Positions 11,203-60,996 of a stretch of DNA of 64,000 nucleotides are shown here, piece after piece. The position numbers and the translations under genes were made by a program. The notes beneath the pieces were generated by a model. The model saw nothing but the letters and a program-made list of their open reading frames with translations. It searched no databases and was not told the DNA's origin. Every line of letters starts with the position of its first letter. The stretch's first letter is position 1. The stretch comes from Zygnema cylindricum (Eukaryota > Streptophyta > Zygnematophyceae > Zygnematales > Zygnemataceae): the NCBI GenBank assembly GCA_037447655.1, contig JBBHKE010001463.1, positions 62,001-126,000 on the forward strand, written 5' to 3'.

Positions 11203-14200
11203 ATGGCGACAGCTGTTAGGATATGGATGCAAACACTCTGTTTAGGAGAAACATTGATGCTTTGTATGGTACTGGAGGCCAGAGGCGAAAGATCCACGAT
11301 TGGTTCAAACGAAGATTCGACAGGAAAGGCATCGACCAATCGCTATGCAAATTGCACTGTACAAAGCTTTACAAACTTCAAAGAAATTGGAAGTGGAAGG
11401 TGAGGCTTTTTTTAATAAATGCACATAGTTGGGAGCCAATCATGTGCACTTTGCACTTGTTATCTTTTTGATAAAGCGCTAGGCACTTGCATTGTACCTG
11501 CTGTTCATAAGAGACGAAGGCAATGAAAGTTGTTCGTGCATTGTACTCATAGCAAAAGTTAAAGCCGTCACACAGTTTTAAAAATGGAATGGTATGAGAA
11601 TTCAGTTTTTGTTGTTTCCACATCCATGATGCCTATCATCAACACACATTCGTGAAGTTTTTAATTAACAACTCCTAAGGCTTAGTTTTGTTGTGCGATA
11701 ACATCTGAAAATGCTGTTTTTGGTTGACCCATCTCATACGTGTTTTTTACGTATATTGCGGGGTCACCAGATACGGCGTTTCCATGCGTTTTCCTGCTCT
11801 TGAACTACGCTATTTTTGGTTTTACATAAGGATTCAGATGTATTTTTTTTTAAACGTCTCCAATTGGTTGCTTATGCAGAAATGCCTTGATTTACTCCGC
11901 TGTCTGCTGCTATACTGGGCAACGTGTAGCCATCAAAGCTTATCTGCGTAAAGGACTCACGACGATCGATTTGTATCGAGTGAAACGAGAAATTGGACTT
12001 CTCAGAATGTTACAGTAAGCAAGCTTTTTCCGTTTACTGTGTAGGAAGGATTCAAAATGTGTGAATGCACTTCTAAACCGGTCCATTGTCCAAGGATGTA
12101 CCCAAGAGGGAAAGGAATGTCTTTTCATCAGGCCCTTAATACGAGATTTTTTTGATAATTAATGCTCAAATTATTGGACCTTCAACATCTAATGTTCATA
12201 GTTGTTCAATGTTGGACATTTGATGGTGTTTCCTTGAACTAAATCACATAATGTGATTTTATTGCCAAATTATGTATGGTTTAGACACGAGAACATCATT
12301 CGATGGTTGGGACATTTTGAAGACCAGCAGTGCATATTTCTCGTTCAAGAGTGGGCGTCAAGAGGAGATTTATTTGAGGAGTTGAAAATTTGTGGCGGTA
12401 CAATGCCAGAGCGCAGAGTTGTTTCACAGGCAAGGTTTTGCGTTTTCTTCCTTTTTTTTTTGCTTTCTGTATAAAACCTCACATGCCGTCCAGTCACCAA
12501 TATGTTTTCCTTAAACATTTGATGTAAAAAAATCAGGGCGAAAAAGTATTGCCCCAATCACATGTGCAGAAAATACAGTTTTCCGTCACCCACTTTCTCT
12601 GTCAATTTTGCCCAATGCAACATCCTGAATTTGCAAGAAGAAAAATAAAGCAATGAATTGTTTTTTTTTTTTTGGCAAGGACAAATAGCTTACTTTGGGA
12701 GGTGGTGAACATATGCAGATCTTACTACCACTAATCGCGGCATTACAACATATGCATTCACTCGGTATTTTGCACCGAGATCTCAAACCAGAGAACATTT
12801 TGCTCTCTTCTGACGGTGCTATCAAGGTATGGAACGTCGTCTCTTAATTACACTTTTTCTCGTCAATTTGAAAGACATGTCAATTTTTTCAACAACCAAC
12901 AAAGTCTTGCAAATTGTTGATAATTCCGTTTTTTGAGAGTCATGCGACCTGGTCAACAACAACACAGAATGGATTAGTTTGAAAATGTGGAGAAAATGTG
13001 GCATTGTAAGTGATGGATCCACACCGTCCATCGTTATAAAAGTTAATAACACTAATCTGGTCGCAATTTTTTTGGGTCTTTAATCATGAAATAGTGTTAA
13101 CAACACTATTTAAGGACTACAATTTGCCACGTCTACTTGCACTAAATTAGTGATATAAATTCTAATTTTGCATTAACGCTAATAACGACGGGCGGTGTAC
13201 TATGGTTTTAATTGACCGCAGGTCATCCCCTTGCACTAAATTAGTATTATAAATTCTAATTTTACATTAACACTAATGAGTCCTTAACGCTAAAAACAAT
13301 GGGTGCTGTACTGTGGCTTCGATTGACTCCAGGTTTGTGATTTTGGGCTGGCCATAAATGTGGCTATGGAAAGACCAGCAAGTCGTCTTGGTACATTACA
13401 ATACATGGCACCGGAGGTTGTTTGTAGACCCATGATACGACCCCGGAATATGGCCATGATGGAAGCATATGATGAAAAAGTCGACATTTGGTGAGTTGAA
13501 ACTTCCACGAACTTCAAAAATGTTTACTGATTCTCTCACTCACTCAGAAACTCTTGAATTAGCAAGAGTTAGGGAATACAGATTTAACTAATGCAAGACT
13601 GGGCTTTTTTTTGGGTTTTTTTTAATATTTTTATTGATTTTTTTTTCCAGGGCATGTGGAGTTCTTGTTTATGAGCTTGTGATGGGACGACCACCATTTG
13701 AGGGATCAACTGATGAAGGCACAACTCAACAAATCCTTCACATGGAACTCAGGCAGATGCCAGACTCCATGTCTCCACCTTGCCAAGACTTTGTCCGTAA
13801 GGTGACGGTCAATCTCGTCACCTTTTTTTTATTTCCGTCTTTAGTTTCCATCATTACCTTTTTTTAATGTTTTCCAGATAGACGGTTTTTGCTGAGCGAG
13901 CGAGCGAGCCTAATGGAATTAGAGTGAATACATATTGAAATGTGATGCAAAACAAAACTGATTTGACTCACATTTGTTTCCCGCTTTGAAGGTTTTATGC
14001 GAGAGTTTTGAGTCCTCCTCCCCTGCTAATTGTATGTGGACTAAGTGCGGAACAAACCCTTTGTGATATTTGCAGGTTCTAAGAAAGGATCCTTCGGAGA
14101 GAATATCGCTTGCTGAGATGCTTCGTCATCCTTTCATTGTATTAAATTCCAGTCATGAGCAACTTCAGAAAGTTAAAAGGCCGACGGCGTCCGCTTTGCC

Positions 14201-15779: not shown

Positions 15780-15796
15780 ACATGAGATGACATCAC

Positions 15797-16080
15797 CAAT
15801 ACAAATAAGCTGGCGGATTGAAGTGGAAGATGAAGTCAGCAATAGAATATTTGTTTGAAAATAAGGTATGATGGTCCACAGTCGAACCTAAGATGATGTC
15901 AGCAATACGATTAAGCTGGTGGATTGAAGTGGAAGATGAAGTCAGCAATAGAATATGTTTGAAAATAAGGAATGATGGTCCACAGTCAAACCTAAGATGA
16001 TGTCAGCAATACCAATAAGCTGGCAGATAGAAGTGGAAGATGATGCCAGCAACAGAAAATTGTTTGAAAATAAGGAAATT
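15797..16080 (+). repeat. Tandem repeat in the kinase 3' UTR, unit about 108 bp, three copies
   Basis: Starting 18 bp after the stop codon, a unit containing GATGATGTCAGCAATAC, AAGCTGG, GAAGTGGAAGATGA and GTTTGAAAATAAGG is repeated about three times with a few substitutions. It is probably transcribed as 3' UTR. Confidence 0.8.
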
Positions 16081-22779: not shown

Positions 22780-23470
22780 GTTGAAGGTCTTGGGCATTCT
22801 GACTTGGCTGTGTTCCACTCCCACTAAGCGTCACACTTGCACCATCAGGAACTGAGCCATTAGTACACATGGCAGCAGAAGCAAACCCAAAGAGTAATAC
22901 CTATTTGACTAGATTTATGTTGTAAGATATGTAGCTTTAAGTGAGAGAGGTCTTACAACCAGACAAACATATACCACAACCAAAAATAAGGACAATAAAA
23001 CAGAAAAACACCTTAAAGTGCACTTAGTGCTCTCATTTCCTTAACCTCTGTGTAGAATGTACATTCTGTGTTGAATTGATCAATCCTAATTGAACTAAAT
23101 ACTCAAAAGATCTAGAAAACATCTAAAAGATATAGAAAACATCTAAAATATATAGAAAACATCTAAAACTTATGTACATGGTTTAGTAGACACCCTACTC
23201 ACAAAAATCTAAGTGTTTGGACCTGAATTGTCTACTAACAATATCTATACCCTAAAAATCCGGGTGATTCTTATCACGTCTATATTCATTGGCAACCCTA
23301 CACACTAACTAACTTAAAGATATCAATTCGTGTAGATACTACAAAAAATCCACACTAAATTTGGTCAATATTGAACAGTTGGTATTCCAAAAATATTCTA
23401 AGTGCTAGACTCAAATTTCTAAGACTTACTAAAACTTACTTTTCAATACTCCCCTTAAGCTTTAGAAGAC

Positions 23471-24274
23471 TTACTCACTTAGACCACATGTTTTTCTGCA
23501 GAACTCCAACTTAGGAGCGGGAAGGGTTTTTGTCAACATGTCCTCAACCATTTTCTCATCAGGCAAATAACAAAGTTTGACCACTTTTGCAAAAACTTTC
23601 TCTCTTACCAAATGTAGCCGAATGTCCATATGTTTACTCTTAAAATGGTGACTTGGGTTTGAAGCCACCGAAATGGCTGTCCGATTGTCGCACCACATTA
23701 TTTGTGTCCCGTGTTGCGTAAAACCCAATTCTTGAAGAAACACCTTAATCCATAGCAACTCTTTCAAGGCTCCGCTCGCAGCCATATATTCGGCTTCCAT
23801 AGTAGATTGAGCCATGACCTTTTGAAGTTTACTGCTCCAACTACAAGTACCACTTCTAATCTGAATGACATACCCAATTGTAGACTTCCTACTAAGCACA
23901 TCACCATAGCTAGCATCACTCCAAGTATTAATGCTAACCTTGTCCCCTCCCAAAGTAAGCCAAAGATTTCTTGTCCCAACAAGATACCTTAACACCCTTT
24001 TTGCAGCCTCCCAGTCTCTCTTTGGTGGATTTTGCAGACTTTTGCTCAATACACAAACAGCTGCAGCTATATCGGGCCTAGTGCAATTCATGAAGTAAAT
24101 TAGACTTCTTACTACTTGTCTGTAGGGTACTTGGGACATAAACTTTTGCTCTTCTGCACTGGGTTCCTCATCTATTATGACTCCAAACTCATGCTCCATT
24201 CCTTCAAGTTTTTGCTTATACTCCATAGGAGTTGCACAACCTTTGGCATCAACCAAACCAAATTTTTCCAACAT
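23471..24274 (-). pseudogene. Copia RT C-terminus and RNase H
   Basis: 267 codons from a Met inside the coding region. It includes SQVPYRQVVRSLIYFMNCTR, TRPDIAAAVCVLSK, WSDASYGDVLSRKSTIGY, a SKLQKVMAQSTMEAEYMA block (typically SRKQ..VALSSTEAEYMA), WCDNRTAI, KHMDIRLHLVREKV and DMLTKTLPAPKLEF. This is the canonical Ty1/copia RNase H order. The motifs D, E and D of the active site are visible. It is separated from the RT frame by a frameshift around 24300-24340. Confidence 0.85.
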
Positions 24275-24340
24275 GTTTCCTATCGCTTCTTTTTGAGTTA
24301 GCCTAATGATTTTCTTTTCTCTATCTCTTTCAGCTTGTAT

Positions 24341-25117
24341 TCAAAGAATGTATTTAGCCTCACCCAAATCCTTCATTTCAAATTTTGAATTAAGAGCACG
24401 TTTTACTCTAGCAATTCCTTCTTTGTTCCTACTAATTAGCAGCGAATCATCAACATACACAGCAATGAATATCACCTCATCAGGATTATCACCACACATC
24501 ACATATACTGAATGATCTGAACTAATTCTTGTAAATCCTAATCCTGTCAATAACTCATCTAACTTTCGGTTCCATTGCCTAGGGGCCTGTTTTAGGCCAT
24601 ACAAAGATTTTAAAAGGCTGCACAAAATATTTTCTTTTCCTGCTTCCTCATAACCCTCTGGTTGCTTTATATAGTTGACCTCATCTAAATCACCATGCAA
24701 AAATGCAGTTTTGACATCCATTTGGTTGATGTCAGAATCCTCTATGGCAGCTAATGTAAGTAAGATGCGTACAGATGGAAACCTTACAACCGGTGAAAAT
24801 GTTTCTTCATAATCTATCCCCTCCTTTTGATTATATCCCTTAGCAACCAAACGAGCCTTATACATGTCTATGGTATTATCTGGGTTCAATTTTAACTTAA
24901 ACACCCATTTACTTCCAATAGCCTTTCTTCCAGGAGGAAGTTCCACCAGATCCCATGTTTGGGCCTCCATGATGGACTTCATTTCCTCATTAACCGCTTC
25001 CACCCAGTGTTCCCTTTCATTACTCGAAAAAGCTTCCGTCAACGTTAGAGGCTCTTCTATGTGTGCTGAGTGAGCAAAGGCTGCATTTTCTCCCCTAAGT
25101 CGCGCACTTCGCCTCAC
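24341..25117 (-). pseudogene. Copia reverse transcriptase
   Basis: 258 codons with the family landmarks: EAVNEEMKSIMEAQTWDLVE, GSKWVFKLKLNPDN, YKARLVAKGYNQKEGIDYEE, FSPVVRFPSVRILLTLAA, QMDVKTAFLHGDLDE, SLYGLKQAPRQWN and the catalytic YVDD in VYVDDSLLIS. The ORF covers most of the RVT_2-type domain, and its end joins RNase H after a frame change. Not a host gene. Confidence 0.9.
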
Positions 25118-25129
25118 TCGACCTGGAAA

Positions 25130-25468
25130 TTATGTCGCTGGTATAGATGGTTGAGTCCTCCTCCTTGGTACATGTGATTCTTCTTGTGATTCAGTTTCGG
25201 CTTGAGGTAGAGGAGAGTCTGCAGCTATTTCGGGCATAACACTTTCTGTTTCTGGTGGAGAAGATGATTGCAAGGCACTTTGAGCTAATGTAGATGCATT
25301 TTCTATATTTTTCTTGAAAAACATGGGATTTTCTTCTAAAAAGATATAATCAACACTTTTATCCTTCTTTTCATCTATACGCTCATTAAATACATCTACT
25401 CCTTTTCCTTCATCCTTCACAATAATGTTTCTGGCTACCACAACTTTATTTCTCTTAGTGTCATACAC
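25130..25468 (-). pseudogene. Copia integrase C-terminal and linker region
   Basis: Starts with MYDTKRNKVVVARNIIVKDE, the usual end of a copia integrase (YD...K.V.ARDVVF.E). An acidic, Ser-rich linker follows up to RRTQPSIPAT before the RT frame. The upstream part between this and the integrase core is in another frame with a stop (RN-type segments near 25500-25620). Confidence 0.75.
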
Positions 25469-25551
25469 TCTATAACCTTTGGCATGATCATCATACCCTA
25501 GAAATAGCTTTGCTATACCCTTTGGTTCTAGCTTCTATTTCTGCGGATCAT

Positions 25552-26275
25552 TATCTAACATAAAAACCTTACTTCCAAAAACCTTAAAGTGACTTACATC
25601 TGGTTTGTGTCCAGTCCACATTTCATAGGGAGTTTTATCTTTTACGGCCTTGTTTCTAGCCTGTTTCTCACATAAGCTGCACAATTCATAGCCTTTGCCC
25701 AAAACTTGTAATCTATGTCTATATCAGCCATCATTGTCCTAGCACACTCTGATATAGTCCTGTTCATCCTCTGTGAAACACTGTTTTGTTCCGAAGAATA
25801 AGGAACAGTAAGCTGACGTGAGATTCTATGCAATTTTAAGAATTCAGCAAACTCATTAGAAATGTACTCCCCTCGATTATCAGATTTGAACCTTGCTATC
25901 TTTCTCTCATGCATATTTTCACCCCAAGCCTTATATTCCTTAAACTTTGCAAAGACTTCATCCTTACTTTTCAAAAAATAAACTGTAGTAAACCTACTAT
26001 AGTCATCCGTAAAAGTAAGCATAAACTTAACCCCTCCCACAGATGGGTATCTAGATGGCCCCCATATATTTGAATAAATTAGTTCTAGCACCTTGCTACT
26101 TCTAAGATCAGTTTGCGAAGGGAAAGGCAACTTATGGATTTTTCACATTGCACCACCATCACATATATTTGATGCTGGTTTTTAACTAATTTTTACACCT
26201 TTCACCATTTTTTGATTTACCATCTTTTCTAATCTATCATAATTCACATGTCCTAAACGTTCATGCCACTATTGA
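25552..26275 (-). pseudogene. Copia integrase core, copy 2
   Basis: Includes LELIYSNIWGPSRYPSVGGV, FTDDYSRFTTVYFLKSKDEV, FKSDNRGEYISNEFAEFLK, RQLTVPYSSEQN and MNRTISECARTMMAD. The DDE-type residues are recognisable. It is a near-duplicate of 26886-27606; here several residues are altered (SEQNSVSQR instead of PEQNGVS). Confidence 0.8.
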
Positions 26276-26885
26276 AAAAAAGATTTAGTAAGTCTTAGAA
26301 ATTTGAGTCTAGGACTTAGAAATTATTTTTAGAATACCAACTGTTCAATATTGACCTAATTTAGTGTAGATTTTTTGTAATTTCTACACGAATTGATATC
26401 CATAAGCTAATTAGTGTGTAGGGTTGTCAATGAATGTAGACGTGATAAGAATCATCCGGATTTTTAGGGTATAGATATTGTTAGTGGACAATTCTGATCC
26501 AAACATTTAGATTTTTGTCAGTAGGGTGTCTAGTGAACCATGTTTATAGGTTTTTGATGTTTTCTAGATCTTTTAGATGTTTTTATTAGATCTTTTAGAT
26601 GTTTTCGAGATATTTTGAGTATTTAGTTCAATTAGGATTGATCAATTCCATACAGAATGTACATTTTACACAAGAATTAAGGAAATGAGAGCACTGAGTG
26701 CAGTTTAAGGTGTTTTATGCTCTATTGTCTCTAATTTGCATGTAGTACATGTTTGTTTGGTTGAAAGACCTCTTTTGTTTGGAGTAACATATCTTACACT
26801 ATAGATCTAGTCTTTTAGGCATTTCTCTTAGGGTTTGCTTCCGCTAACATGTTTGATAATGGCTCAGCTCCTATTGCAAGGGCTC
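26275..26885 (+). mobile_element. Inverted copia LTR plus start of gag
   Basis: On the plus strand this segment reads as the LTR of the same family (GTAAGTCTTAGAAATTTGAG, CACGAATTGATATC, GTGATAAGAATCATCC, TAGTTCAATTAGGATTGATC). It continues through the leader to a gag-like start (ATG then NGSAP), that is, in opposite orientation to the rest of the locus. It lies exactly between the two integrase copies. Confidence 0.8.
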
Positions 26886-27831
26886 CTATTATCTAACATA
26901 AAAACCTTACTTCCAAAAACCTTAAAGTGACTTACATCTGGTTTGTGTCCAGTCCACATTTCATAGGGAGTTTTATCTTTTACGGCCTTGTTTCTAGCCT
27001 GTTTCTCACATAAGCTGCACAATTCATAGCCTTTGCCCAAAACTTGTAATCTATGTCTATATCAGCCATCATTGTCCTAGCACACTCTGGTATAGTCCTA
27101 TTCATCCTCTATGAAACACCGTTTTGTTCCGGAGAATAAGGAACAGTAAGCTGACGTGATATTCCATGTAATTTTAAGAATTCCGTAAACTCATTAGAAA
27201 TGTACTCCCCTCTATTATCAGATCTGAACCCTGCTATCTTTCTCTCATGTAGAGATTCAACCCAAGCCTTATACTCCTTAAATTTTGCAAAGACTTCATC
27301 CTTACTTTTCAGAAAATAAACTGTAGTAAACCTACTATAGTCATCCGTAAAAGTAAGCATAAACTTAACCCCTCCCACAGATGGGTATCTAGATGGCCCC
27401 CATACATCTGAATAAATTAGTTCTAGCACCCTGCTACTTCTATGATCAGTTTGCGAAGGGAAAGACAACTTATAGATTTTTCCCATTGCACAGCTATCAC
27501 ATACATTTGATGCTGGTTGTTGACTAATTTTTACACCTTCCACCATTTTCTGATTTACCATCTTTTCTAATCTATCATAATTCACATGTCCTAAACGTTT
27601 ATGCCATAAATCACAATCACTGATTACACTTGAGTACATAACATCATTGTCATTATCATTTGCAAGACTCAATCGATACAAATTGTTTCCACCAGCAAAA
27701 CCCTCTGCAGCTATTTTCCCATTCTTACTCACTGTTTTCTTCCCATTCTCAGAAATAGTTTTAAAACCTTTTTTTTCTACCACTGACGTAGAGAAAAAAG
27801 TTTCTTTTAAAAGCTGGGACATGCAACACAT
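26886..27831 (-). pseudogene. Copia integrase N-terminal zinc region and core, copy 1
   Basis: Contains the GAG_pre-integrase part (YRLSLANDNDND, LWHKRLGHVNYDRLEKMV, VCDSCAMGKIYKLSF) with the HHCC-type residues. The rve core follows (LELIYSDVWGPSRYPSVGGV, LTFTDDYSRFTTVYFLK, FRSDNRGEYISNEF, PYSPEQNGVS). It is cut at 26886, where the inverted LTR fragment begins. Confidence 0.85.
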
Positions 27832-28261
27832 CTTCTAAAACCCTTTTCACAGGTTTTCCCTCTACATTCAACATAAGTGTCACCCTCCTCTTTGCTTTCG
27901 ACTCAACAAAGGTATCATCACTAAAATAAATTTTGACAGGAGAGGTAGATGGAATACTCTCAAAGAGATGGCGACTGCGGCATATGTGTGCAGATGCACC
28001 CGAGTCCATAATCCATTCGTCTTCCTCCACGCCTTCCGTTGCTTGTGCCATCGCAAAGTATTTCTTTTCGCTGTTATCGGGAGAGCTGCTCACATCCTCC
28101 TCTTGAAGTGCGTTGGAAAATGTTGTTGGGCGTCCATTTGACGTAGATGGAACTCGGCTTTCGTCCCAACCAGAGCAAAAATTTCCCGTAGCTTTAGCTC
28201 TCTCGTAGGCATGACACATCCTGAAAACATGGTTTTTTTCATCACTGTAATAGCATGTCAA
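27761..28261 (-). pseudogene. Copia zinc knuckle and protease region
   Basis: Shows a degenerate knuckle (CYYSDEKNHVFRMC, in which the second Cys of CX2C is Ser), a Ser-rich linker, and the aspartic protease motif in EWIMDSGASAHIC. YFSDDTFVESKAKRRVTL and the LEDVLHVPAFKRNFF segment that ends copia protease follow. It is separated by frameshifts from gag and integrase. Confidence 0.85.
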
Positions 28262-28297
28262 AGGTGACCTTCTAGGACCACTACCTCTACCACTGCC

Positions 28298-28577
28298 ACT
28301 ACCACTGCCACTGCCAATCTTAGAGTCTAAAAATTGGTTAGTTAGTGCCTGAACAGACTTACTACTGCCTCTTTGTGAAATCTAGTTAGCTACTTCGCTC
28401 AAAATAAACTATATTGCTAATGCTATGTTCCACTGAAGCTACCACTGCCACGGCCAATCTTAGAGTCTGAAAATTTGTTAGCTAGTGCCTGAACAGACTT
28501 ACTACTACCTCTTTGTGAAATCTGGTTAGCTACTTCGCTCAAAATAAACTATATTGCTAATGCTATGTTTCACTGAC
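28298..28577. repeat. Tandem duplication of about 143 bp inside copia gag
   Basis: A block with CCACTGCC, GCCAATCTTAGAGTCT, CCTGAACAGACTTACTACT and CTATATTGCTAATGCTATGT is present twice in tandem with about 10 differences. It lies at the 3' end of gag and contributes to its inactivation. Confidence 0.8.
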
Positions 28578-29157
28578 GCTGTGGAAGAGCCCTTAGCCTA
28601 TCCATGGCTCCTTTATATTCATCAGGTAAAGTTCTCATCAATAACATAGCCTGTTGAGGTGGTGAAATGTCCCCACCTGCACTTGTACTCTGAAGGAAGA
28701 ACCTTTTCATAGCATGACAATGATCTGACATACTACCCCGTGAATACTTAAATTCAAAGATCTGAGTGGCTATGTTAGTTTGCACAGTAGCATCTAGCTG
28801 AACATACATAGCACATACGCTAAACCAAACTTTACAAGCTTTCTTCAAATCAAGATACGACATTACCAAATCTTTTGTCATTACCTGTTTCAAGACGTTG
28901 AGGCAGTAGAGATTCTTCTTTTTCCAATCCGGTGCCGTCTCATCGGCAGTTCCTTCCACAATGGGTGACAAGTCCCTCTCCTCGAAATATGAGCTCAGCA
29001 TATCTTCCCAATATAAGAAGTCAGTTCCATCAAAAATAGGCAATTTGGGCGGTGGGCCCATAACGTGTTGAAGGTCATGGGCATTCTGACTTGGCTGTGT
29101 TCCACTCCCACTAGGCGTCACACTTGCACCATCAGGAACTGAGCCATTAGTACACAT
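28570..29157 (-). pseudogene. Copia gag (UBN2-type) N-terminal part
   Basis: 195 codons with PPKLPIFDGTDFLYWEDML, KACKVWFSVCAMYVQLDATV, FEFKYSRGSMSDHCHAMKRF and PQQAMLLMRTLPDEYKGAM. These match the copia gag polypeptide (W...L...Y, LP.EY). The start Met lies in the segment duplicated at the far left of the locus (22868). Confidence 0.8.
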
Positions 29158-29633
29158 GGCAGCAGAAGCAAACCCAAAGAGTAATACCTATTTGACTAGA
29201 TTTATGTTGTAAGATATGTAGCTTTAAGTGAGAGAGGTCTTACAACCAGACAAACATATACCACAACCAAAAATAAGGACAATAAAATAGAAAAACACCT
29301 TAAAGTGCACTTAGTGCTCTCATTTCCTTAACCTCTGTGTAGAATGTACATTCTGTGTTGAATTGATCAATCCTAATTGAACTAAATACTCAAAAGATCT
29401 AGAAAACATCTAAAAGATCTAGAAAACATCTAAAAGATATAGAAAACATCTAAAACTTATGTACATGGTTCACCAGACACCCTAGTGACAAAAATCTAAG
29501 TGTTTGGACCAGAATTGTCCACGAACAATATCTATACCCTAAAAGTCCGGGTGATTCTTATCACGTCTACATTCATTGGCGGCCCTACACACTAATTAAC
29601 TTAAAGATATCAATTCGTGTAGATAGTAGGCAG

Positions 29634-44655: not shown

Positions 44656-47600
44656 TATATATATATAGACATTTTCCTTCTCATAAGCTTATGAGGAACA
44701 GCTCAATTAAAGTTTCAACAGTATCTTTATCCAGACTTCTTAACAATAAATTATTGTATATGCTGTCAAGCTTCCATCTCTTTCTGTCTAGTTCACTTTT
44801 ATTGGTATCTCAATGCCAATTTTTTTTCTTGATTTTTGAAGATAATTGTTATTATTATTACGTTTTCTTAAACTCTGGCCACTGAAAAGGGGAGCTCAAC
44901 GATCAGATTGTTAACTGATGAGAAAAAGTACATTTGCTGAATGCATAAGTAGTTTTTTTTTTTTTTAAATGAGTAAATTTTGTCTTGTAGTACTGAGGCA
45001 CATTACTGTCGTTGACCTCCAAGTCTGGCGATTATAATTTTCTTTACTAGAGAGGCAATGTACAATCAGATTTTTTTTTTTTTAAATTGCATTAGAAATG
45101 CTGTTTATCATTTTTGTATTGACACATTCTTGAAAATAAGAATAAAATAATTATGAATGATTTGATTCTAATTTTTTCCTCTGTCAGTTTCTTAGCAATT
45201 TGCAATGTCGCCACATTTGCTCCTTTAAAAAACAAGAAGGAATAAAAGGTTCAACAAACATTTTTTCTCTCTAGATTTTTTGGCAGTTTGCAGTAGCCAT
45301 ATTTGCTCCTTTTGTTGCAAATGAAAGGTTCATGAAACCAATGCCTCATTTTGACAATTTGCCAATTTTTCCTTTGTAACTCTCTTAGCAATTTGCAGTA
45401 TGCCATTGTTGCTCCTCAAAAAAAATATATCAATGAAAGGTTTGTGAATCTTCATTTATTGTAACTTTTTCGGCCTTTGCAGTATTGTATATTTTCTCCT
45501 TAACACAGTAGTTGAATGAAAAGTCCGTGGAACTGAATCCTCATTCGTTGTAACTTTTTGGCACTTGCAGTATGCCATATTTGCTCCATTTGTTGCAAAG
45601 GCTGTTCATGCAAACCTTTTGAATGGTCATGACGCGGACAATTGGTGCCTTCACATGGTCGTGGCTTCCGCTTTACGATTTCTTCACGGTCAAATATGGA
45701 TGTCTCTTTCACGGTGGCAGTATTTGGTGGAAAAGCATCAGATCCAGACAAAGGGGATCGCATTCGAGCAAGTGGATCGTGAGGAAAGATGGTAATAAAG
45801 TGACTCCGCCTTTACCTTGGCTTTGGTTAATTTCTGTTTCTTGTAGGTGTCTTGAAAGGTTGCAAAAAGGTACTTTTTCTTTGTAATTTTTGCAAAGACT
45901 TGTCAATCATGTGCTGATCAAAAGACATGACATTTAGTCAAGAATAGTCAAAAATCCCGAAGTCTATCAGAAGGGGCCATATTTGTTGCTTTCAACTTTC
46001 AAATCGTGTCTCGATTCTACTTCTAGTCCCAGTTGTGCCAAGGAGTGGAATTGCCTTGTTTGTCAAAATTGTTTTTTTTCCTTGTTTGGCCGGTAAAACT
46101 TGATTTTCTTGTTTACCAACATTATTCGCCCATTCTTGTTTGACTAAGCGGGTTGTTAATTTCATTTTCTTGTTCGACTAAGTCATTTGTTTCTTTGTTT
46201 CACCAATAAAACATTCCATTTTCTTTTGCCCAAATTACTCCCTTCCTTGTTCAACCAAGTTACTTTTTCCTTTCTTGTCTTGTCACAGGGATGACTACAT
46301 TATCTTACATGTTCTGGTGGCCACGGCTGTTCGTGCCATTCTTCCTGGATTCACCAATTTCCCCCTTTTTGATGGATGGGGCCTTGTCATAATGCTGTTG
46401 CTACATATGGGTCCAGCTGAATGTGTATACTACTGGGCCCATCGTGCCCTTCATCATCACTACCTCTACACTCGTTACCACTCCCACCACCATGCTTCTT
46501 TTGTCACAGAGCCCGTGACTGGTAATTATTTCTTTTTTTTTGGGTATCATCAAATGCAAGACAAGACTGAATTTCTCGCATGACAAGACTTCGAAACGTC
46601 CCACTTGTTATTTCGCATCTTAAATTTCTTTCTTCAGGATGCTTAAGCTGTTTATGTCTTTGTTGCTCGATTTTTCAAATTGAAGAGAGAAATCGGCAAG
46701 AGTTCAACTCTGGAAGAGACTGGAGAGGATGTTAGCGAGAGTGAGGTGAATTGCTAAAAGGAGAGAATTGTCCTGTCTTATGAAGATTCTGTGATGTCGT
46801 GATTGAGAAGGCATTGAAGGCTGACCATATTGGGGTGGGGATGTATACAGGCTCTGTCCATCCTTTTGCAGAGCACATGATGTATACGGCTATGTTTGCG
46901 ATTCCATTATTGGGAACATGGTTGCTTGGAGGAGCTTCAATAGCCATGTTTTACGTCTATTGGCTTGGGTTTGATTTCTTCAATGTTATCGGCCATTGCA
47001 ATTGGGAATTTATTCCTTCATGGGTGATGAAGACCTTTCCATTTATTAAATATCTCATCTACACGCCATCGTAAGTCGATGATTAGTGATGAAAACGAGT
47101 TGCTATGGATGTGATGTTTGGCTCCTTTATTTTATTTTCTTTTGCTATATTTTTTATTGGCTTATATTACGTGTTATCCTATCTAACTTTGTGATTCTTA
47201 CCATTATCTATTTTTTAGAATTTGTGGGGAAATGAACCCAATCATGACCAGTTTCTATGTTCCTCATATGAATGGTTCCACCATCTCTCATCCTCTCTCG
47301 TTTCACTCATCTACACAAACCCTCCATGAACATTTTTTCTAAACTTCTTTTCAGTTTTCTTGATTCACAGGTATCATTCATTGCACCACTCCCAAGTCCA
47401 TACTAATTTTGCTCTCTTCATGCCCCTATACGACTATTTGGGCGGCACGATGGATCCAATGTCAGACCTTCTTCACACTGCTGTTAGAAAAGGTGATTTA
47501 TTTGTCTTCTCTTTCCTCTGAACTTCACAAAACATGAACTTTTCGGTCATGAAGGTTTGAAACGTGAATTTCAAGTCATGTTCATAATTTGGATGGACTG

Positions 47601-50600
47601 TGGCTATCTTTTGATAGTTTTCATATGATCAAAGCTTTTAAGAATTGTTTTTTTATGGAGCTGATCGCATTAGTCAATTTCATTTATGCCAGTGAAGACA
47701 AACAGATCAAATCAACAAGCTCAATTCATGAACTTTGGATAGTCCGTTTTTCTTTTTCCAGGCCGGACCAACCAACCAGATTTTGTATTTCTGGCTCATG
47801 GCACGGAGCTCCTCTCTCTTTTCCATCTTCCTTTCGGTATCGCATCATTTGCAGCACGACCATATGCTCCCACATTTTTCTTGTACCTTTTGTGGCCACT
47901 AACTCTCCCTGCTTTAGTGATTATATGGATTTTTGGACGAGTTTTCACTTCCGATAAATACACTCTTGAAAGCCTTCGCATGCAAACATGGGTCATGCCC
48001 CGTTTTGGGTTTCAGGTGAGCAACCTTTCACTTAAGCTCAGCTAAGGAGAGGAACATTTGAGTTTGATAACAATAAGTAGATAATCACATTTTGTTCTAA
48101 CAAGGAGAAGGCAGTCACATTCAATAACAGAAGCCATTCACGTTAATCAGCAGATGGTCATTCACAGTAATTGACAATCCACCGCTAAAATGATAAAAAA
48201 AGAGTTGTTCTCACTAGCGAATGAAATCATATACATCGACGTGTTCGTTAAAGGTAGATGCTGACATTTGAAATTTCTCTTTATCGATGCGCTTTACAAT
48301 GAACTAATCATACAGCTCTATGTCTTCGATGACTATGATGCAGTCACGCCATTTGTGGTGTGCCATGAATTTCTGTTGTTTTGCTACGTCGGTTTCATGG
48401 GTAGTGCTGATGTTGTTAGTGGATAGATGTAGATAATTATGTCCAAAGTTATTTTAAATAGCAAGGGCAACAAAGTGTTTGAAAAACGTTAACAGATTTT
48501 TAAATTTGCCTGTGGAATTTCACTGCGGACAAGTGATAGGAGAAACTGATTGTAGCGATAGAGTATTCTTTCTTTCCCTTTTCATGTGCCCTTCGGATGG
48601 AAAGGATGTGAATTTACAGCAAAAGATTTAGATGTCATGGCTCTTAAGAATAGGGAAGTTTTACAGCCCAGCCAGTGAGAGGAGTTTAAAACATGCATTT
48701 GTTGTAGTCTGGACCACAATATTTCTGAATTGAGAGTATTTAATGTTTTTTTTTGGGGCAAAGCTTTATTTTTTGCAATATATGCAATTTATGGTCCAAA
48801 GCATACTTGCAGTCACCTGAATTGCACCTGAATTGTAAATATTGAACGTAAATTTGTATGGATTTGTGCTGTAATTCTCCAAAGTATGTTAGCGCAGAGA
48901 TCCACACTAATTGTGATGAGCATTCGCACTCATTTCAGTTGCAAATACGGCAAGCACTGATTGGAGCATGCTAGGGATTAGCCAATCTGAATTATTTTTT
49001 TCCTGGAATAGAATATTTTTTTGTCCTTTGTTGAGCAGCTATTTTCAAACTGAAAATTTTCTCCATTTTATTTCTCTTTTTATCAACATTTTCTTTGAAT
49101 TTACAGTTGTTTGAAGTAACTTCGGATGGATTTAAGATTAGACAGGGAGTTACAGACCAAAACTGCCTGAAATGCAACATTTCTTATTATTTCTTCTCAT
49201 GCATCAAAGATATAATTAAATGAAAAATACATTAATGAAAAGTAGCAATCAGTTATACTTTTGGTAAATTGCCCATCCAAACTTTAGCTACCCTATCTTG
49301 AGAGGAAAACCTTACCAGCAGATTACTACAGGATTCATTTCGAATTCTAACTGTTATTGTTTTCTAACTGACTAAACCCTCCTGCTGGAATGCTTTTTAT
49401 GACCAGTACTTTTTGCCTTTTGAGAAAAAACGCATCAATCAACATATTGAGCAAGCGATTCTTGATGCTGACCGAATGGGAGTTAAGGTTTTCACCTTGG
49501 GAGCTCTCAACAAGGTTAGTGGAACACTCCCCTTTTTTTTGGACAATAAGACAATGGACGGGGAAAATGGTGTTTACAGTTTCTATCTTTATTGTTGACC
49601 GTTAAACAGTGAAAATTCATATGTTTGGTCAGTCATATGTTAAGTCAGTGATTAATAAAAGTGTCAATAGGATTTCTGTATCTTTCAGTATCGGTGACAA
49701 TCTTGAGGAGTACGTTATTTTCAGAATGAGTCTTGATAGCTGATTTGAAGTATAGCTGACTCTCTATCTTTCAAAACCAGTTGCTGGTTTTTCCTAGTTT
49801 GTACTCTTTGGGCTACTCTTTCAATGCATCTTTTTGAATAATGAATGTCTTGAGATGTCCATATCTGAGAACCGGTTGCTACCTTTTGTCAGTTTTTCCC
49901 ATTGGGTTGCTCTTTCAATGCATCTTTTTGAACAATTAATGTGTTGAGATGCCCACATCGAAAGACCGGTTGCTAACTTTTGCCAGTTTTGCCCATTGGT
50001 TTGCACTTTAAATGTATCTTTTTGAATAATGGATGTGTTGACATGCCCTTAATTTGATGATGCAGAATGAAAGTCTTAATGGAGGAGGCACTCACTTTGT
50101 TGAAAAGCATAAAGACTTAAGAGTTCGTGTCGTCCATGGGAATACTTTAACTGCTGCTATTATTTTGAGAGAATTGCCTGTTGGAGTGAAAGAAGTATTT
50201 ATGAATGGGGCAACTTCAAAGCTCGGTCGGGCCATTGCATTGTACCTTTGTCAAAGGGGAGTACTTGTGCGGGTATGTTTCCTCCTTCCTGAATCACTTT
50301 TTTTTGTAAACTTTTCACCAAGATCAGGTTTGAATATACTAAGTTTCTTTTCTGTTTTTGTTTATTTTAGAAGCTGACAGTCTAACAAGCTTTGGCTGAT
50401 ATAACTTGCAAAGAAGTTTTGCTTTTTCTTCTCGTTCAACTTTTATTCACACTATTTCATTCCAATGGAAAAACTCTTGTTTTTTATTCTTTCTTGTTCA
50501 ACTCTTATCCTAGCTATTTCATTCCAAAAATAACATCCGTGTGTTTATTTTCTTTTGCGTTATCTTATACTAATGTTTTCATCTCCCAAAAAAAAAAAAC

Positions 50601-53128
50601 CTGCTTTTTTTTTTCTTTCTCGTTTGACCCTATTTCATCCCAAGAAAGAAAACCTTGTTTTAATTCTTTCTCATCGGACTCTTATCCTAATTATTTTGTT
50701 CCCAAAAGAAAAATCCTGTTTTTTTCTCTTATCCTAACCCAAAATGAAAAATCGTGATTTTAGATTCTTTCTCATTCAACTCTTATGCTAACAATTTTAT
50801 CACGAAAAAAAAAATGTTGTTTTTTTTTTTTTTTCTCATTTGACTCTAATCCTGACTTCTACCCAAAAAAAGTAATCTTGTTTCTAGTTTTATTTCATTC
50901 TACTCTTGTCCCAGCTATTTCATTCCTAACAAAAGCTTCTCGTTTTCATTTTCTTTCTCATTTGAATCTTATCCTAACTAATCCAAACAAAAATATACTG
51001 TTTTTATTTCCTTTCTCATTCGTCTTTTCTTCCAAATAATTCACTTGAAACGTAAAGCTATTGTTTCTGTTTTCTTTCTCATTTGACTTTTATCCTGACT
51101 AATTTATTCCAAACAAAAATATCTTGCTTTTATTTCCTTTCTCATTCGACTCCTATCTTAGCTATTTTCATTCCTAAATGAAAAAATCTTGTTTTGTTAT
51201 TCAACTCGTATCCTAACTAATCCATTCCAAAAAAAAAAATTGTCCAGATGTTGACATCGTCCCAAGAACGATTTGATTCCATCAGAGAGGAAGCAGAAGA
51301 AGACAAACGCCATCTTTTGGTACAAGCCAAAGATTACTCTGATGGGGCAAATTGCAAGGTAACTTTTCAATAAAAATTTGTTTGTTTATATAACATTACC
51401 AGCAAATATTATTTACTAATACAAAATGCTTGTTATCGATTACTCGTTATTTGTTCTCGTTGTTTGCTTGCCGATTGCCGATTATTGAGTATTACTTACT
51501 GATTATTTGTTATTGATCTGACGCCATTTATCGATTACTGATTGTTGATTCTTGTTCATCTATTTTGTGTATACATTGTTCATTGTTTATTTATTAGTAT
51601 TTCTTTTCCGTTGTTTTTTTTATTTTATTGATGAGATATTGCATATAATTTTTATCTCTAGTTGTTATTTTTCTCTGACAATGACACCAGTGTCTTACAT
51701 TAAAGCATATTGTTATTTTCACAAGCGTTTTTATCCAGTCTGTTTCTAATTTCTGAATCTCTTATCTAGTTTTTGGCATGTGTGGTTGTCGTTTTGTATT
51801 GTTCATTTGGAATTCTTACATGAGTGGATATTGTGTGCATTTTATTGCTGGATCTAGATTATTGTGGAATACATTTAAATATACACCAATGAGACTCAAA
51901 TCTATTTACAGTGGATAGAGTTTGACAAATAAACGAAAGGTTGAATGGTATACCTATCTTTTGATTAAATTTACATCCTGATCTTGTATTGAAATGCTCT
52001 TTAGGGAAAAAATTTCATTAAAAAAAACCGGAAAAGAAAAGACCGGTGTATTTTGCCTACAATGATTGATTTTGTATTCCGCATTCACATTTTATTTCGC
52101 CGGTCGGAATATCTTTGTTTGAAAGCTTCTTCTTATTTTTCAGAAACTCTAAGCCTCATTACTAACAGAATTTTGGATTTCCTGCTCACATTCAGAAACT
52201 TTTGTCAATGATCCTCATTGTTCTTTGCAATATTCAGGATGTACTATTTGCATTCGATCTTATATCAATTTTTTTTTTCTTTGCAGACATGGATTGTTGG
52301 AAAATGGTTGAAACCAAAGGAGCAAGATTGTGCTCCTCCGGGAACCCATTTCCATCAATTTGTGGTTCCTCCAATGGCAGAAACTCGTACCGATTGTACT
52401 TACGGAAAATTGGCAAGCATGCGTCTTCCTAAGAGTATTCAAGGAATGAGGAGTTGTGAGGTGAGCTTATGAAAAGACCTTTTCATGACCATGGGGAGAT
52501 TTGACAAAGGCTAACAATATTTCCTCTAACAGCAATTCACCAGTCGTTAACTCCCTTATCACGGTAATGTAGATGATTACTGAGAAATTGACAATGGATT
52601 ACTAACAATTTTGTTACTTTCATAGCAGTTCACAAGGTGTAATAACTGGTCTTATTATTGCAGATGACTATGGAGATATTGACAAAGGTTAACTAACCAT
52701 TTCTTTGCTCTAGTAGCAGTTCACGAGGTCTTATAACTCGTTTGTCTTATTACAGTAGCAGTTCACAAGGTCTAATAACCCATTCGTCTTATTACAGCAG
52801 CAGTTCATGAGTCATTCGTCTTGTTATAGCAGATGACTACGGAGAAAATGACAAAGGTTAACTAACATTTTCTTTACTCTAAAAGCAGTTCACGAGGTGT
52901 AACAACTCGTTTGTCTTATCATAGTAGCTGTTCACAAGGTCTAATAATAAATCGTTTGTCTTATTATTGCAGATGACTATGGAGAGGAACTGTGTGCATG
53001 CATGCCATGCCGGGGGACTGGTCCATGCGCTAGAGGGATGGCAGCATCATGAGGTCGGGGCCATCGACCCGTCGCAAATTGATGTGGTATGGGAAGCTGC
53101 TCTTCGACATGGATTTAAGCCCGTATAA
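43950..53128 (+). CDS. CER1: CER1-like very-long-chain aldehyde decarbonylase (alkane-forming)
   Basis: Eleven exons join in frame to 621 aa, the usual CER1 length: 43950-44009, 45571-45791, 46289-46521, 46851-47070, 47371-47492, 47762-48015, 49407-49514, 50066-50272, 51248-51358, 52287-52460 and 52973-53128. All introns are GT-AG. The start [20 protein letters not shown] is typical. The N-terminal fatty-acid-hydroxylase domain has several membrane segments and the three diiron His motifs HRALHH (145-150), HSHHH (158-162) and HSLHH (247-251), plus HPFAEH and GHCNWE. The C-terminal WAX2/CER1 domain includes [20 protein letters not shown] and ends with a [15 protein letters not shown] motif. 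In land plants CER1 works with CER3 in the ER to turn very-long-chain acyl-CoA into alkanes of the surface wax. CER3 lacks these His motifs, so CER1 is the better name. Introns 1, 2, 7, 9 and 10 carry tandem repeats. Confidence 0.93.
44583..44673. repeat. (AT)n microsatellite in CER1 intron 1
   Basis: About 70 bases of uninterrupted AT dinucleotides, then a short mixed ATATAGAC tail. Confidence 0.95.
45188..45600 (+). repeat. Array of duplicated 3' splice sites and exon-2 starts in CER1 intron 1
   Basis: Five units spaced 84-105 bp, ending in the real exon 2. Each has a TT(A/G)GCA(A/G)TTTGCAG-like or related acceptor followed by sequence related to TATGCCATATTTGCTCC. The AGs end at 45293, 45398, 45482 and 45570 (real); the first copy (45205) has lost its AG. 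The unit at 45293 also keeps TTTTGTTGCAAA but lacks one base of exon sequence. Confidence 0.85.
46075..46285 (+). repeat. Degenerate tandem repeat in CER1 intron 2
   Basis: About five imperfect units of roughly 35-45 bp built on TTTCTTGTTTGACTAAGTC and related variants. They run up to the acceptor of exon 3. Confidence 0.6.
49790..50065 (+). repeat. Tandem repeat at the end of CER1 intron 7, unit about 105 bp
   Basis: Three units share GCTCTTTCAATGCATCTTTTT, split here as GCTCTTTCAATG and CATCTTTTTGAA, then TGTGTTGAGATGCCC and ACCGGTTGCTA. The last runs into the exon-8 acceptor. Confidence 0.8.
50395..51240 (+). repeat. Degenerate tandem array filling CER1 intron 9
   Basis: Roughly ten to twelve imperfect units of 60-85 bp containing CTTTCTCATTCAACTC, TTATCCTAACTA and TTTCATTCCAAA. 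The array ends at the exon-9 acceptor. It makes Phe/Ser/Leu-rich spurious open frames. Confidence 0.75.
52480..52990 (+). repeat. Array of duplicated last-exon starts in CER1 intron 10
   Basis: Copies of the acceptor and start of the last exon (ATTGCAG|ATGACTATGGAGA) occur with AG ending at 52572 (diverged), 52663, 52832 and 52972 (real). An AG-less copy lies at about 52484. Intronic copies continue with TTGACAAAGGTTAACTAAC, whereas the real exon continues with GGAACTGTGTG. Confidence 0.85.
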
Positions 53129-56002: not shown

Positions 56003-59000
56003 CTACGAATCCCGTGGAGCTTCAAACCTTGTAGGGGAGTCGACAGCCCCTAGGCAGCAAAGCCCAGAAATCAAAGTAATAAGAAGCACAATTACCTGTT
56101 AACAAAACCCACAATTTTCCCCACCATCATTTTCCCTCCGTGTTAGAGTCGGGTATGGATAATGTAAGCACAGAAATACGAGTTATCAGAAGCACAATTA
56201 CCCAAAAACACAGCCAACTATTTTCCTATCATGGTAAGTCCGGTATGGATGATATATCAAGAATCATTTATACGTCGGCTTTAAAAGGAGGAACACAGGG
56301 AATAGGAGACCCGCTTCAACAATTAGGAAGCAGTACCATCCAACGGAAACAAAGTCCAAAATCGCCATTTCAACTGCAAACAGTTCATAACTGACTCAAA
56401 TTACTACACTGACTCACTCAATCACTGACTCTCTGATTGGTCTGATTGTATTGCAACTTCATTCTCTTACGTTTATCATTCTCTCTTACAATGGAAACCT
56501 TACAATGGAGTTAAAAACAGTCAGACCCACAGGTTTCACGAATCCGGTAAACTCACCACTGCTAATGTCTCCAACATCAGAGACCTGGTAAGACAGCTGT
56601 CATCGCAAGTCCTATTGGATGAGACAGTTGTGGTAGCTGTGTCGAGAACTATTCGCCGGGCTCCAATGCTTTCCTTAGGATCGGCTGTATAGAGCACAAG
56701 ATGCTTGACACCAAACTCCTGGACAGAGGAGTAAGCACTTGAAAACAAACCACCTGCCAGGCAAAGTGTTTTATCAATATCAAAAGTATAAATGGCACCA
56801 GCATTAGTAGGAATACATAAAGAGCAAGAAGAAAGATGGAGAGTCAGATAAAGGCGTGCAATATCAAAAAACCCTTCCCACTAGAATCGGCTAAATTTCA
56901 TCCAATGGAGCTGGATTTGTATGAAAACTAAAACATCATAGCATTTCCGATCCGGTTTTCTTTTTACCAAGTGTGTTTTCTGTTATACCTTCTCTCAGAA
57001 GAAGGTCATGTTCCTCATCTGCTTTTGTGGATGGTGCACACATGAGCAGCAAGTCAGTTTGACCTTCCAATTTTTTCACAGCCCTCTCCTCCAAATAAGC
57101 CTGCAACAACGTAAGTTAAACCAATTCCATAATAGGCGTTAATATTAAAATTAACATAAGAGGCTTTAAAACCTACAAAAGATTAGTACTGAACCAAGCC
57201 CACAAGCATGAGTTCTCAGAACTCCCCACATGCATGAACTTCATACCAACAGGATAAGGGGTTCATTTCAGATTACCGTGTGTTGAAAAGATAAAATTAA
57301 ACCCTAGTTCCAGAAAACAAGTCCTTCAGTGCATATAACATAAAATTCGCAACTTCCTCGACTTTAATCCTCAAAAAACTTCAGTACTCCTACTACCATA
57401 AAAGACCACCATGAAAATTGCAAACGAGTGGCCATTTAACACCTTCGACTTTTTGCTCCAAAGTCAGGATAATCGAGATGATAAACATATAAAAGAGATG
57501 GGAAACACAGAAAGGTAGTAATACCCTACCTTCACATCATCCACAGCCTCCAAGGTCCTACCAGCAACTGGCGTGATCTGACAGTCCCCAACAATCACCA
57601 CCTGACCTTCCGGAAAATTCTCCCGGAATGCATTTAATAACTGAGCCGTTACTGATTCCTGAGTTTTTGAAGTCTCAGAGGTGATGTAGGGAAGCACACG
57701 GGATGATGTAGCATCGTCCAAAGCATTCTGCATCATCTTCTTTCCACATATCAGCTACCTTATGCTTAGTCGGTATCTTGATCACAAATTTCAGAAAAGA
57801 ATATCGACATGAAGAAAACAACTCACAATTTGTCAGTAAAATCTGAGACATCCAGTTCACAACTGAATTCGAAAAAAATTCTGACAGGAAGCTTATAAGA
57901 GAGAAAACTGAAATTATTTGGAATAGCCCAACTAAACATGAAATCTTACGTCATAAACAGGCCTGCAAAGAGCTTCGCAGGTGACTTAATTAGTAGTCCT
58001 TGAGATGGAATCTCTTTCAAAAAGGACACAAATTAACTGTGTGGGGCAAAAAAAAAATCTATGTCTACAAGTTTGTGAAGCAGACGGACAACTGACAAGT
58101 CCACAAATCTTAATCCCAAATCTGACCTTTGACAATGTTGCTTGCCTGCACCTTATCCCAAAAAACCCTGCTACTGTCCAACAACAGATAAAAACCTACC
58201 CCACAATAAAGGCATAAGAAAGGGACCCGGAACCTGGGACTTCTCCATACCGGCATGTATAGACAGAAACAAACGCTACCTTTTAAGAAAGAAAATGAAG
58301 GTTCACTGGCACTGTAGCCGCATCCATCATACATGAAGGGACAGCTTTTGAGTTTATCCAATTCCCAGAAATGGCAGGTGACAGAAAAAAGTCAGGAAAC
58401 AAAAAGCTAACCTTTATGGTGCTCAAAGGGTTGGCAGCCAGCTCCTGAACCTCTCCATATTGTGCCAAATGTTGAGAGTTAAGCTGCTCCGAACAAAAAA
58501 CCATTTTTGCACATCACTTTCCCATCCAGTGAACTTCAGAAACTTTGAACCTTTCTTAATCTAGATTTAGGAAAGTTGGCCTGGCCTAAGCTGCCCGATG
58601 ACCAAAGTTTTAATGAGACATTTAAGGCATTTCAACTAACTTTTGACCTTCAGGATGACCACTCGGACTCTTCGTTCTATGAAAACAAACGATGATGTCA
58701 AAATCTCCAATAAGAACTGCCATTGGTTTGATGTCACTCCTATTCACAGTCAACAGTATTAAAACATTGTAAAGCATAAAAAAAATAGTATAGAAAATTC
58801 CAGCGGAAATCCATCGAAAGCGGCAAGACATCATCCAAAAGCGTGATTTTCCAAACTTTGGTAATAGTCTCAAACTTTGCCTGCTCACCGATTCTCCTAG
58901 GAGTGTGCCAAGTGAAAAAAATATTGAAAGGCTATCAGCAAACTGGAATGGAAGCCATAATAAGATAGTAAATGATTAATTACTATCAACAATGTTCCAC

Positions 59001-60996
59001 AGGATCATATATGCGGTAGCTCCCAGCTCCCATGACACTTAACATCTTTTAAGTCCTTCCAGCGCATTAAATGGAGACTGAAAAGAATCTTACCTCCTTG
59101 CCCACAAAGGCCAAAACAAGGTCAGGCTTCTCTTCTACTGTCGCTGAAAAGACCGCAGTCTGCAAAGTACAAAGGACAAAGCATTTGTTTATTCCATTAA
59201 CCTTCTTCTCTATATTTATGGTAGCTTGCAGCTATTTTCTCAGCGAATGTGTAATCGTTATAGACTTTAGTCTGGACACATCATGACAGGAGGGAAGTAG
59301 GACAATCAGCAGCAACACCATAACCATAAGCATCAAACCATACTCTCGACTTTGAGCAACAAATTGCAAAACCAATGTCCTCTAAACTTTCTTTGGATCA
59401 GAGATTATTTAACACTACACCGCGAATCGTAATTAGAGTAATGAAAAAATTAGAGTACAAAAACTAAAAAAAAAAATTAGAGTAATGAACGCTAATTTAT
59501 GTGATAGAGCTGTTTCAACTATGAAGTTTACTCTAATTTATTTAAGTACTTCTAATTTGGCACGCTAATATCCTCTACTGTAAATAAGGTATTCGTACAG
59601 AATTTGGCAAAACGTACAGTTTATCGTCACTATGACGTTTGCACTACGCGGTTTGTTAAAACGCAGTTACATGATAATGGCCTGCATTTAATCATTATTT
59701 GTACTTTTTTACTTAATAAAGTACAATTTTGCACGGTCGGAGGTCATCCGTACTCCACACTATTTAAAACGAACCTATACCTTAAATAGAATAATGAAAA
59801 AATTAGAATCATTTACTCTATTTCATGTGACAGAGTCGAAATTTCGAGCAACCGAATTAGAGTAATTTACTCTAATTACGATTCGCGGTGTACAAGAACC
59901 AAACAGCCCAACGAGTCCTGAGAGATCAGATACACCAATTTCATGACAAAAACAGGAAGGTTTGTCAATCTCGCTAATTTATGACCACAATCGACACGTA
60001 TATGAGGATTCTAATAACTCCACAGCTAATAACTAACAGAAAGACACACTGTGAGTACCCATAGCAAACAAAAAATGATATGAAAACTAGCATTCAGCAC
60101 CAATTAATAACCTAATAATGCAATAGTGAGTGACATGAAACTGGATTTTAAAATTAAATTAAGAGTAATCTGTCCTTTTATGATGCAAACTCAACCCTTA
60201 CTAATATCAGCAATAATACGCAGTGCAAATTTAATATAGGAAATATTATCAATAAATTGCCTGCAGATTTGAACCAATCAGTGAACATGAAAGAAAATAG
60301 AACTATTCACTTCTTGCTAAGTTTATGCCATACAAAAAACTAAACGTAGGATCAAATATCCAATGAAAACCTCATCTCGGAGAAATATAAGAGTTTAAAT
60401 GGTAAAATGACCTTATGGTGCAAACCTAAACCTAAAACTTCAGCTGATTTGCAATATGTCCTGTTATATACTGTTCAGAAAATGTCAAACATACCTGTGA
60501 CAGTTCCTCCTTTGATTGACCTTTCAGAGATCCAAAGAGGTCGGAAATAAGCTTTTCAAAAGAGATTGTCTGATAATCTAGGGAGGAAGAGCTTTGCACA
60601 AATCTGAAAACAAGTCACACATTGGAATCAAAATACAAGAAATTACAGCACAAACAAATCACAACACAACACAAGTACCGTCATACAGACTTTAGGAATC
60701 AATATTTGGTTGACGAATCAGTTCAGATAGAGTCATTAACTTTAACATATAAAAGCAAATCTTCATCAACAGAGGGATTATAGAACAGTTTGCTGATAAA
60801 GGCACCTACATTCACAACTTTCAAAAAGGAAAAGTTACAAAAAAAAAGAAATAGGGAAGAGAAAGTACCCTGTATTCGACCATACAAATGCTGGAACGCT
60901 CCATGAGGCTGCGGCGGATCCAGAAAACGTCAAAATAAGTCCAAAAAGGCATACAGCTGCCAGAGAACCAGAGCAAAAAGACGTGGATACAGCCAT
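56003..60996 (-). CDS. ATP6AP1/Ac45-like V-ATPase accessory protein (type I membrane protein)
   Basis: Eight exons join in frame to 328 aa: 60996-60869, 60603-60495, 59159-59094, 58483-58412, 57739-57530, 57100-56989, 56753-56557 and 56095-56003. Residues 1-30 are a signal peptide (AAVCLFGLILTFSGSAAA). Then comes SVPAFVWS, the start of the mature domain shared by Ac45/Voa1/BIG1-type proteins, and later YQTISFEKLISDLF, VFSATVEEKPDLVLAFVGKE, GQTDLLLMCAP and FGVKHLVLYTADP. A glycosylation site (NRT) and a CDDSC pair precede a single C-terminal membrane segment (VVIVLLITLISGLCCLGAV) and a short tail, SPTRFEAPRDS. The tail and layout match the plant members of this family. Such proteins assist assembly or targeting of the V-ATPase V0 sector in the secretory pathway; the plant role is less established. 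Intron 2 holds a MITE (59418-59890), and intron 7 a decayed copy of the last exon. Confidence 0.85.
56150..56240 (-). pseudogene. Decayed duplicate of the transmembrane exon
   Basis: On the minus strand GGTAATTGTGCTTCTG is followed by a diverged copy of the last exon (VIVLLITRISVL versus VIVLLITLISGL) ending in a CCCGACTC segment. It lies 60-150 bp upstream of the real last exon, in the same intron. Its acceptor has decayed (TTTTTGG instead of AACAGG), which would keep it out of the mRNA. Confidence 0.75.
59418..59890. mobile_element. TA-flanked MITE, A1/A3 subfamily, in intron 2 of the ATP6AP1-like gene
   Basis: Perfect inverted termini (CACCGCGAATCGTAATTAG and CTAATTACGATTCGCGGTG), TA on both sides, 473 bp. 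Uninterrupted, so it serves as the empty-site reference for the nested copies at 18795-20407. Confidence 0.9.

Follow-up and report, generated by a model that had tools for sequence, protein, structure and literature searches.

The window analysed here, a stretch of 64,000 nucleotides of Zygnema cylindricum DNA, raises the question of whether introns have repeatedly grown at their 3' ends, and whether a mechanism by which intron ends are copied anew is needed to account for it. Both had been proposed in the initial annotation of this DNA. The observation of tandem copies at acceptor ends holds, with corrections, and a special mechanism is not supported, which leaves the proposal partly confirmed.

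Genes, introns and tests

Three genes in the window could each be spliced to one open frame: a CER1 gene of 11 exons, a kinase gene of 7 exons and an ATP6AP1-like gene of 8 exons. At the protein level, CER1 shares 96% identity with the database protein P0001 and 73% with the model SM000176S03123, whose prefix we take to denote Spirogloea; its next database matches are from named mosses, liverworts and a clubmoss. For the kinase, the seven best database matches are all from Closterium, and its intron 3 has an apparent GC donor (GCAAGG) instead of GT at 12430, as judged by the reading frame. PF20520 is present in four of the five database matches of the ATP6AP1-like protein, and one match is named as a V-type proton ATPase subunit S1. 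A FYVE zinc-finger gene fragment (Pfam FYVE) lies at 365-2255 on the minus strand, with two clear introns (2120-1291 and 1219-726).

The kinase, CER1 and ATP6AP1-like genes contribute 23 introns, and the FYVE gene brings the sample to 25. In a z test on the 23 introns, the acceptor region [-60,+40] was compared with the remainder of its own intron against a null of dinucleotide shuffles, and donors were treated likewise. Intron 4 of the ATP6AP1-like gene entered this test in the model preceding the acceptor at 57728, which was placed after comparison with a relative's protein, P0121. A cross-intron control set the match of each region to its own intron against its match to the 24 others (25 introns, FYVE included), and an exon-only test compared 45 exon bases with their own and with other introns (25 introns). 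Additionally, a general scan covered any internal direct repeat in each of the 23 introns, with 12 shuffles per intron.

Tandem copies at intron 3' ends

Upstream copies of the acceptor and exon 2 start, four in number, occupy 45199..45563 on the plus strand in CER1 intron 1 (z 21.9; exon-only match 48 vs 21). They begin at 45199, 45287, 45392 and 45476, followed by the functional one at 45564, giving spacings of 88, 105, 84 and 88. The functional acceptor and the first 46 bases of exon 2 lie at 45564..45616 (plus strand, exon start 45571), and the copied part runs to exon +46, or to +29 under another scoring. Between their exon-like parts, the intron copies have in common a stretch resembling AATGAAAGG, which is missing from the functional exon.

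A similar organization is seen in CER1 intron 10, where four units at 52485..52972 (plus strand; z 25.8; exon-only match 26 vs 23) each open with a copy of the exon 11 start. These copies are found at 52485, 52573, 52664 and 52833, ahead of the exon at 52973, with spacings of 88, 91, 169 and 140. By alignment, the copied exon part is the first 13 bases of exon 11 (52973..52985, plus strand), and in the intron copies the 13 exon-like bases are followed by a shared TGACAAxGG stretch that the exon does not have. The array fills almost the whole intron, and the donor region scores high as well (z 8.5). Comparison of this array with a plasmid collection gave no match, a search that says little.

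Two other introns have one extra copy each. In the last ATP6AP1-like intron (intron 7; z 13.0), on the minus strand, a decayed upstream copy of the intron end and last-exon start lies at 56165..56256, with its AG now GG (exon-only match 42 vs 24), next to the functional intron end and about 36 last-exon bases at 56060..56166 (exon start 56095). The decayed duplicate of the last exon that had been described, including its acceptor side, is present, but it covers only about 36 of the exon's 93 nt, reaching exon +36 (+10 under another scoring). In kinase intron 4 (12827-13332, plus strand), an upstream copy of the 3' end with last bases CAG was aligned at 13136..13224 (z 14.6), and the functional 3' end with the first two bases of exon 5 lies at 13230..13334 by gene model and alignment, so that positions -197..-109 align to -103..+2. 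The duplicated 3' splice region reported for this intron stands, with the correction that its exon part is only those 2 bases; it also includes part of an interspersed repeat. This MITE-like repeat, with ends like TACACCGCGAATCGTNATTAG, is found for example at 59416-59893 in ATP6AP1-like intron 2 and at about 13021-13200 in kinase intron 4, where the duplication took in part of one copy; a repeat finder located one 26-nt end piece in 17 copies within the window.

The arrays of CER1 introns 7 and 8 do not span the boundary and stop 7-17 nt short of the acceptor. In intron 7, a 94-bp unit is present about three times at 49789..50049 (plus strand; z 18.0); this tandem repeat had been noticed before and said to run up to the acceptor, but it ends 17 nt before it. 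In intron 8, diverged repeats of a shorter unit, to which TRF assigns a period of 63 in part of the array, extend over most of the intron, at 50403..51240 on the plus strand, and end 7 nt from the acceptor (z 11.8). It is this intron that is affected instead of intron 9, which had been listed as having a repeat up to the acceptor and was rejected as an array case (z -1.4). The repeat assigned to intron 2 survives in weak form, as a pyrimidine-rich repeat near the acceptor at 46166..46277 (plus strand; z 3.6) whose best match is its own intron (28 vs 23); its donor region reaches z 4.1, and it falls under the threshold of the general scan.

Acceptors compared with donors

Acceptor z exceeded 10 in six of the 23 introns (kinase 4, CER1 1, 7, 8 and 10, and ATP6AP1-like 7), and, CER1 intron 2 aside, it was at most 2.7 in the remaining 16. 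Among donors, CER1 introns 10 and 2 were the high scorers, both in arrays also seen at the acceptor, and the other 21 donors had z of at most 2.8. In the cross-intron control, the own intron was the best match for 7 of 25 acceptors (the same six and CER1 2) and for 3 of 25 donors (CER1 10, CER1 2 and, by a margin of 1, CER1 1). With the 45 exon bases alone, this was the case for three of 25 acceptors (CER1 1, ATP6AP1-like 7 and CER1 10, with the values given above) and for one of 25 donors, again by a margin of 1 (22 vs 21). Scores of at least 45 were found at 3.3% of 1306 arbitrary intergenic positions and at 7.2% of 996 genic ones, the genic figure including the arrays themselves; against these rates, 6 of 23 acceptors corresponds to p 8.0e-5 (intergenic) and 4.8e-3 (genic).

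Four of the duplications cross into the exon, by 2 (kinase 4), 13 (CER1 10), 36 (ATP6AP1-like 7) and 46 nt (CER1 1), and no crossing duplication was found among the 25 donors; taken alone, four crossing acceptors against zero donors is a 1 in 16 outcome. The general scan of 23 introns returned six strong arrays, all abutting acceptors and lying on both strands. Apart from these, it listed the interspersed repeat of ATP6AP1-like intron 2 and, within CER1 intron 1, two runs, one an AT microsatellite and the other rich in T. Under random placement, with array extents set by hand from alignments and CER1 8 slightly short, the abutting position of all six arrays has p 7.5e-5, and the crossing of the junction by four of the six has p 0.006. 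When each gene was reduced to a single array and CER1 8 was given a longer extent, the abutting p was 0.0019, 0.0063, 0.0101 or 0.0215 for the four CER1 choices, and it was 0.034 from the kinase and ATP6AP1-like genes alone. For uniform 95-bp duplications, four of six crossing the acceptor has p 7.0e-4, or 5.4e-3 if crossing copies stay visible twice as long.

We hold that the acceptor-side bias is real within this window, which was picked because the pattern had been noticed and in which CER1 gives four of the six strong arrays. Intron growth at 3' ends, as proposed, exceeds both chance and the donor side here, in three genes on both strands. In the FYVE gene, neither of the two introns has an acceptor duplication, and a suspected exon-start copy in intron 1219-726 failed its test (p 0.29). 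Array-bearing introns are somewhat longer than others (p 0.06). RNA folding at their acceptors is no stronger than elsewhere in the sample (p 0.52) and the pyrimidine tract is the same (p 0.46); strong folding and a weak pyrimidine tract were accordingly both rejected as causes of the arrays.

Counterparts in other lineages

Tandem repeats across an intron-exon boundary have been described in amphioxus as mirages, in Adh3, troponin C, the globins BflGb6 and BflGb9, and PGBD5 (PMC3087553, PMC3902484). Their units are of 10-160 bp with splice signals kept in many copies, and regular splicing is reported there as undisturbed. The mirage of BflGb6 comprises the intron 3' end and exon 2 start, and in a second globin gene it is the other boundary that is involved (PMC3087553, PMC3902484). 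The arrays of kinase 4, CER1 1, CER1 10 and ATP6AP1-like 7 resemble mirages in being boundary-spanning tandem repeats, whereas those of CER1 7 and 8 end before the boundary and fall outside that definition. Four intron copies each give CER1 1 and 10 a minisatellite-like copy number, while kinase 4 and ATP6AP1-like 7 have only one extra. Amphioxus mirages, as described, involve both 5' and 3' boundaries, often have near-identical copies and vary in length; the present arrays involve acceptors only, are more diverged and come from a single sequence. The hosts also differ, a lancelet in one case and a plant lineage in the other.

In potato, an acceptor-crossing tandem duplication in an RdRp gene led to a new intron (PMC4974935). 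There the upstream copy became exon and an intron was gained, whereas here the upstream copies appear to remain in one intron. Judged by their sequences, the four junction-crossing arrays may be placed with the mirages and with this potato duplication. Among insertions in rice, tandem duplications are the most frequent class; the majority are below 125 bp, and they are ascribed to adjacent-nick repair (PMC7971508). The arrays resemble these, and the short duplications at broken DNA ends, in tandem layout and unit length (PMC7971508, PMC8355091); unlike the arrays, neither kind is tied to intron ends. Nothing closer was found in passages of PMC10487979, PMC2891723 and PMC11096116. A literature search, with most subscription papers outside it, found two papers on mirages, both dealing with lancelet genes, and no paper on tandem repeats in zygnematophyte introns, which is not a claim of absence from print. 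If mirage-type arrays do exist outside lancelets, they would offer a simple route to longer introns, alternative acceptors and new introns.

Proteins of relatives bear on the arrays as well. Those of a close relative, P0001 (CER1) and P0121 (ATP6AP1-like), have no insert at the array-bearing junctions, a point in favour of the origin set out below, although this relative may itself lack the arrays. In the model P0002, 24 additional residues, the last of them Q, coincide exactly with the CER1 exon 1/2 junction, and two of the seven Closterium kinase models P0126-P0132 (P0126 and P0127) have extra copies of the exon 5 start after kinase intron 4. As P0002, P0126 and P0127 are predicted proteins without DNA, they are leads only, to possible acceptor duplications in relatives.

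Origin of the arrays

What is directly seen are the copies with their ends and spacing, and the sequence common to the intron copies. On this sequence evidence, the arrays are probably mirage-type minisatellites that arose by short duplication and array growth, without a separate re-copying process. The first step would have been a short duplication in tandem, in most cases of about 80-110 bp, that captured the last intron bases and, in four cases, the first 2-46 exon bases, perhaps when nearby nicks were repaired or through some comparable ordinary duplication. The duplicated product would then have multiplied inside the array in CER1 introns 1 and 10, through slippage or unequal exchange. 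The last copy would remain joined to the real exon and be spliced, the last acceptor presumably being the one used in this species, while upstream copies turn intronic and decay. Spacings of 84-111 bp are found in kinase 4, CER1 1, CER1 7, ATP6AP1-like 7 and the first two units of CER1 10, the exceptions being the shorter units of CER1 8 and the two CER1 10 units of 169 and 140 bp.

The proposed mechanism that re-copies the intron end fits poorly with the two long arrays. The intron copies of CER1 1 and 10 share sequence or joins that are missing from the functional exon, suggesting one founder and later array growth; in these two, which are the informative ones among the six arrays, the functional acceptor and exon were apparently not the source of each copy. 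Re-copying that used one and the same breakpoint every time would mimic the founder pattern in CER1 10, so that CER1 1 provides the better argument; overall, such re-copying seems unlikely.

Similar arrays also occur outside these introns, examples being one with a 104-bp unit past the kinase stop, one with an 86-bp unit at 16390 and one with a 140-bp unit at 28299. The first of these, 2.8 copies at 15785-16077, lies directly past the kinase stop codon. When the array units were compared with the rest of the window, only the kinase array matched elsewhere, over 26-29 bp of the interspersed repeat. Mobile elements or introner-like introns were rejected as the source of the units, since within the window the same sequence is not present at many places.

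Random duplication does not predict that six of six arrays abut acceptors, which leaves either an added 3' bias or a lucky window. Such a bias could be a mutational one of the lineage, with intron 3' ends becoming duplicated where, for instance, transcription or splicing causes nicks or fork stalling at the acceptor. The position of all six strong arrays at acceptors, on both strands, the four junction crossings against none at 25 donors and, as a lead, the two Closterium models point towards it. However, the sample is small and was chosen for the pattern, four of six arrays are in one gene, the FYVE gene adds none, and the comparison of crossings is modest when taken alone. Furthermore, a single founder seems to have given rise to the copies of each of the two long arrays by amplification, and neither folding nor pyrimidine content differs at array acceptors. 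A bias of this kind is rather unlikely. It is similarly doubtful that the lineage has gained tandem duplications at intron 3' ends genome-wide and one-sidedly, with stacked old acceptors as a polar plant counterpart of mirages; if genome-wide, a one-sided 3' bias would point to acceptor-tied repair or transcription events.

Selection might instead keep extra acceptors as decoys whose use leads to early stops, tuning expression of the CER1, kinase and ATP6AP1-like genes. AG is kept in seven of nine upstream acceptor copies, and the nine copies that were translated (CER1 1 and CER1 10 with four each, kinase 4 with one) all reach a stop codon within 0-22 codons. Any intron sequence would be expected to contain stops, though, two of the nine lack the AG in front (the ATP6AP1-like GG copy is outside the nine), and AG retention is estimated to be no higher than neutral decay would give at the observed identities, making selected decoys improbable. 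Assembly errors are the least credible source, for although tandem repeats are prone to misassembly and one amphioxus mirage was misassembled in the draft genome (PMC3087553), the copies are diverged (e.g., 77-91% identity over best-matching stretches) and each array has its own unit.

Apart from the arrays, the window contains a direct repeat, 5823-6568 and 8245-8974, about 2.4 kb apart with 94-99% identity in pieces. A retrotransposon at about 23100-29500 on the minus strand has gag-, integrase- and reverse-transcriptase-like frames; one scanned frame had no Pfam match, and the element is Copia-like by eye. Within it, a 300-nt stretch at 25550 recurs at 26888 with 97% identity.
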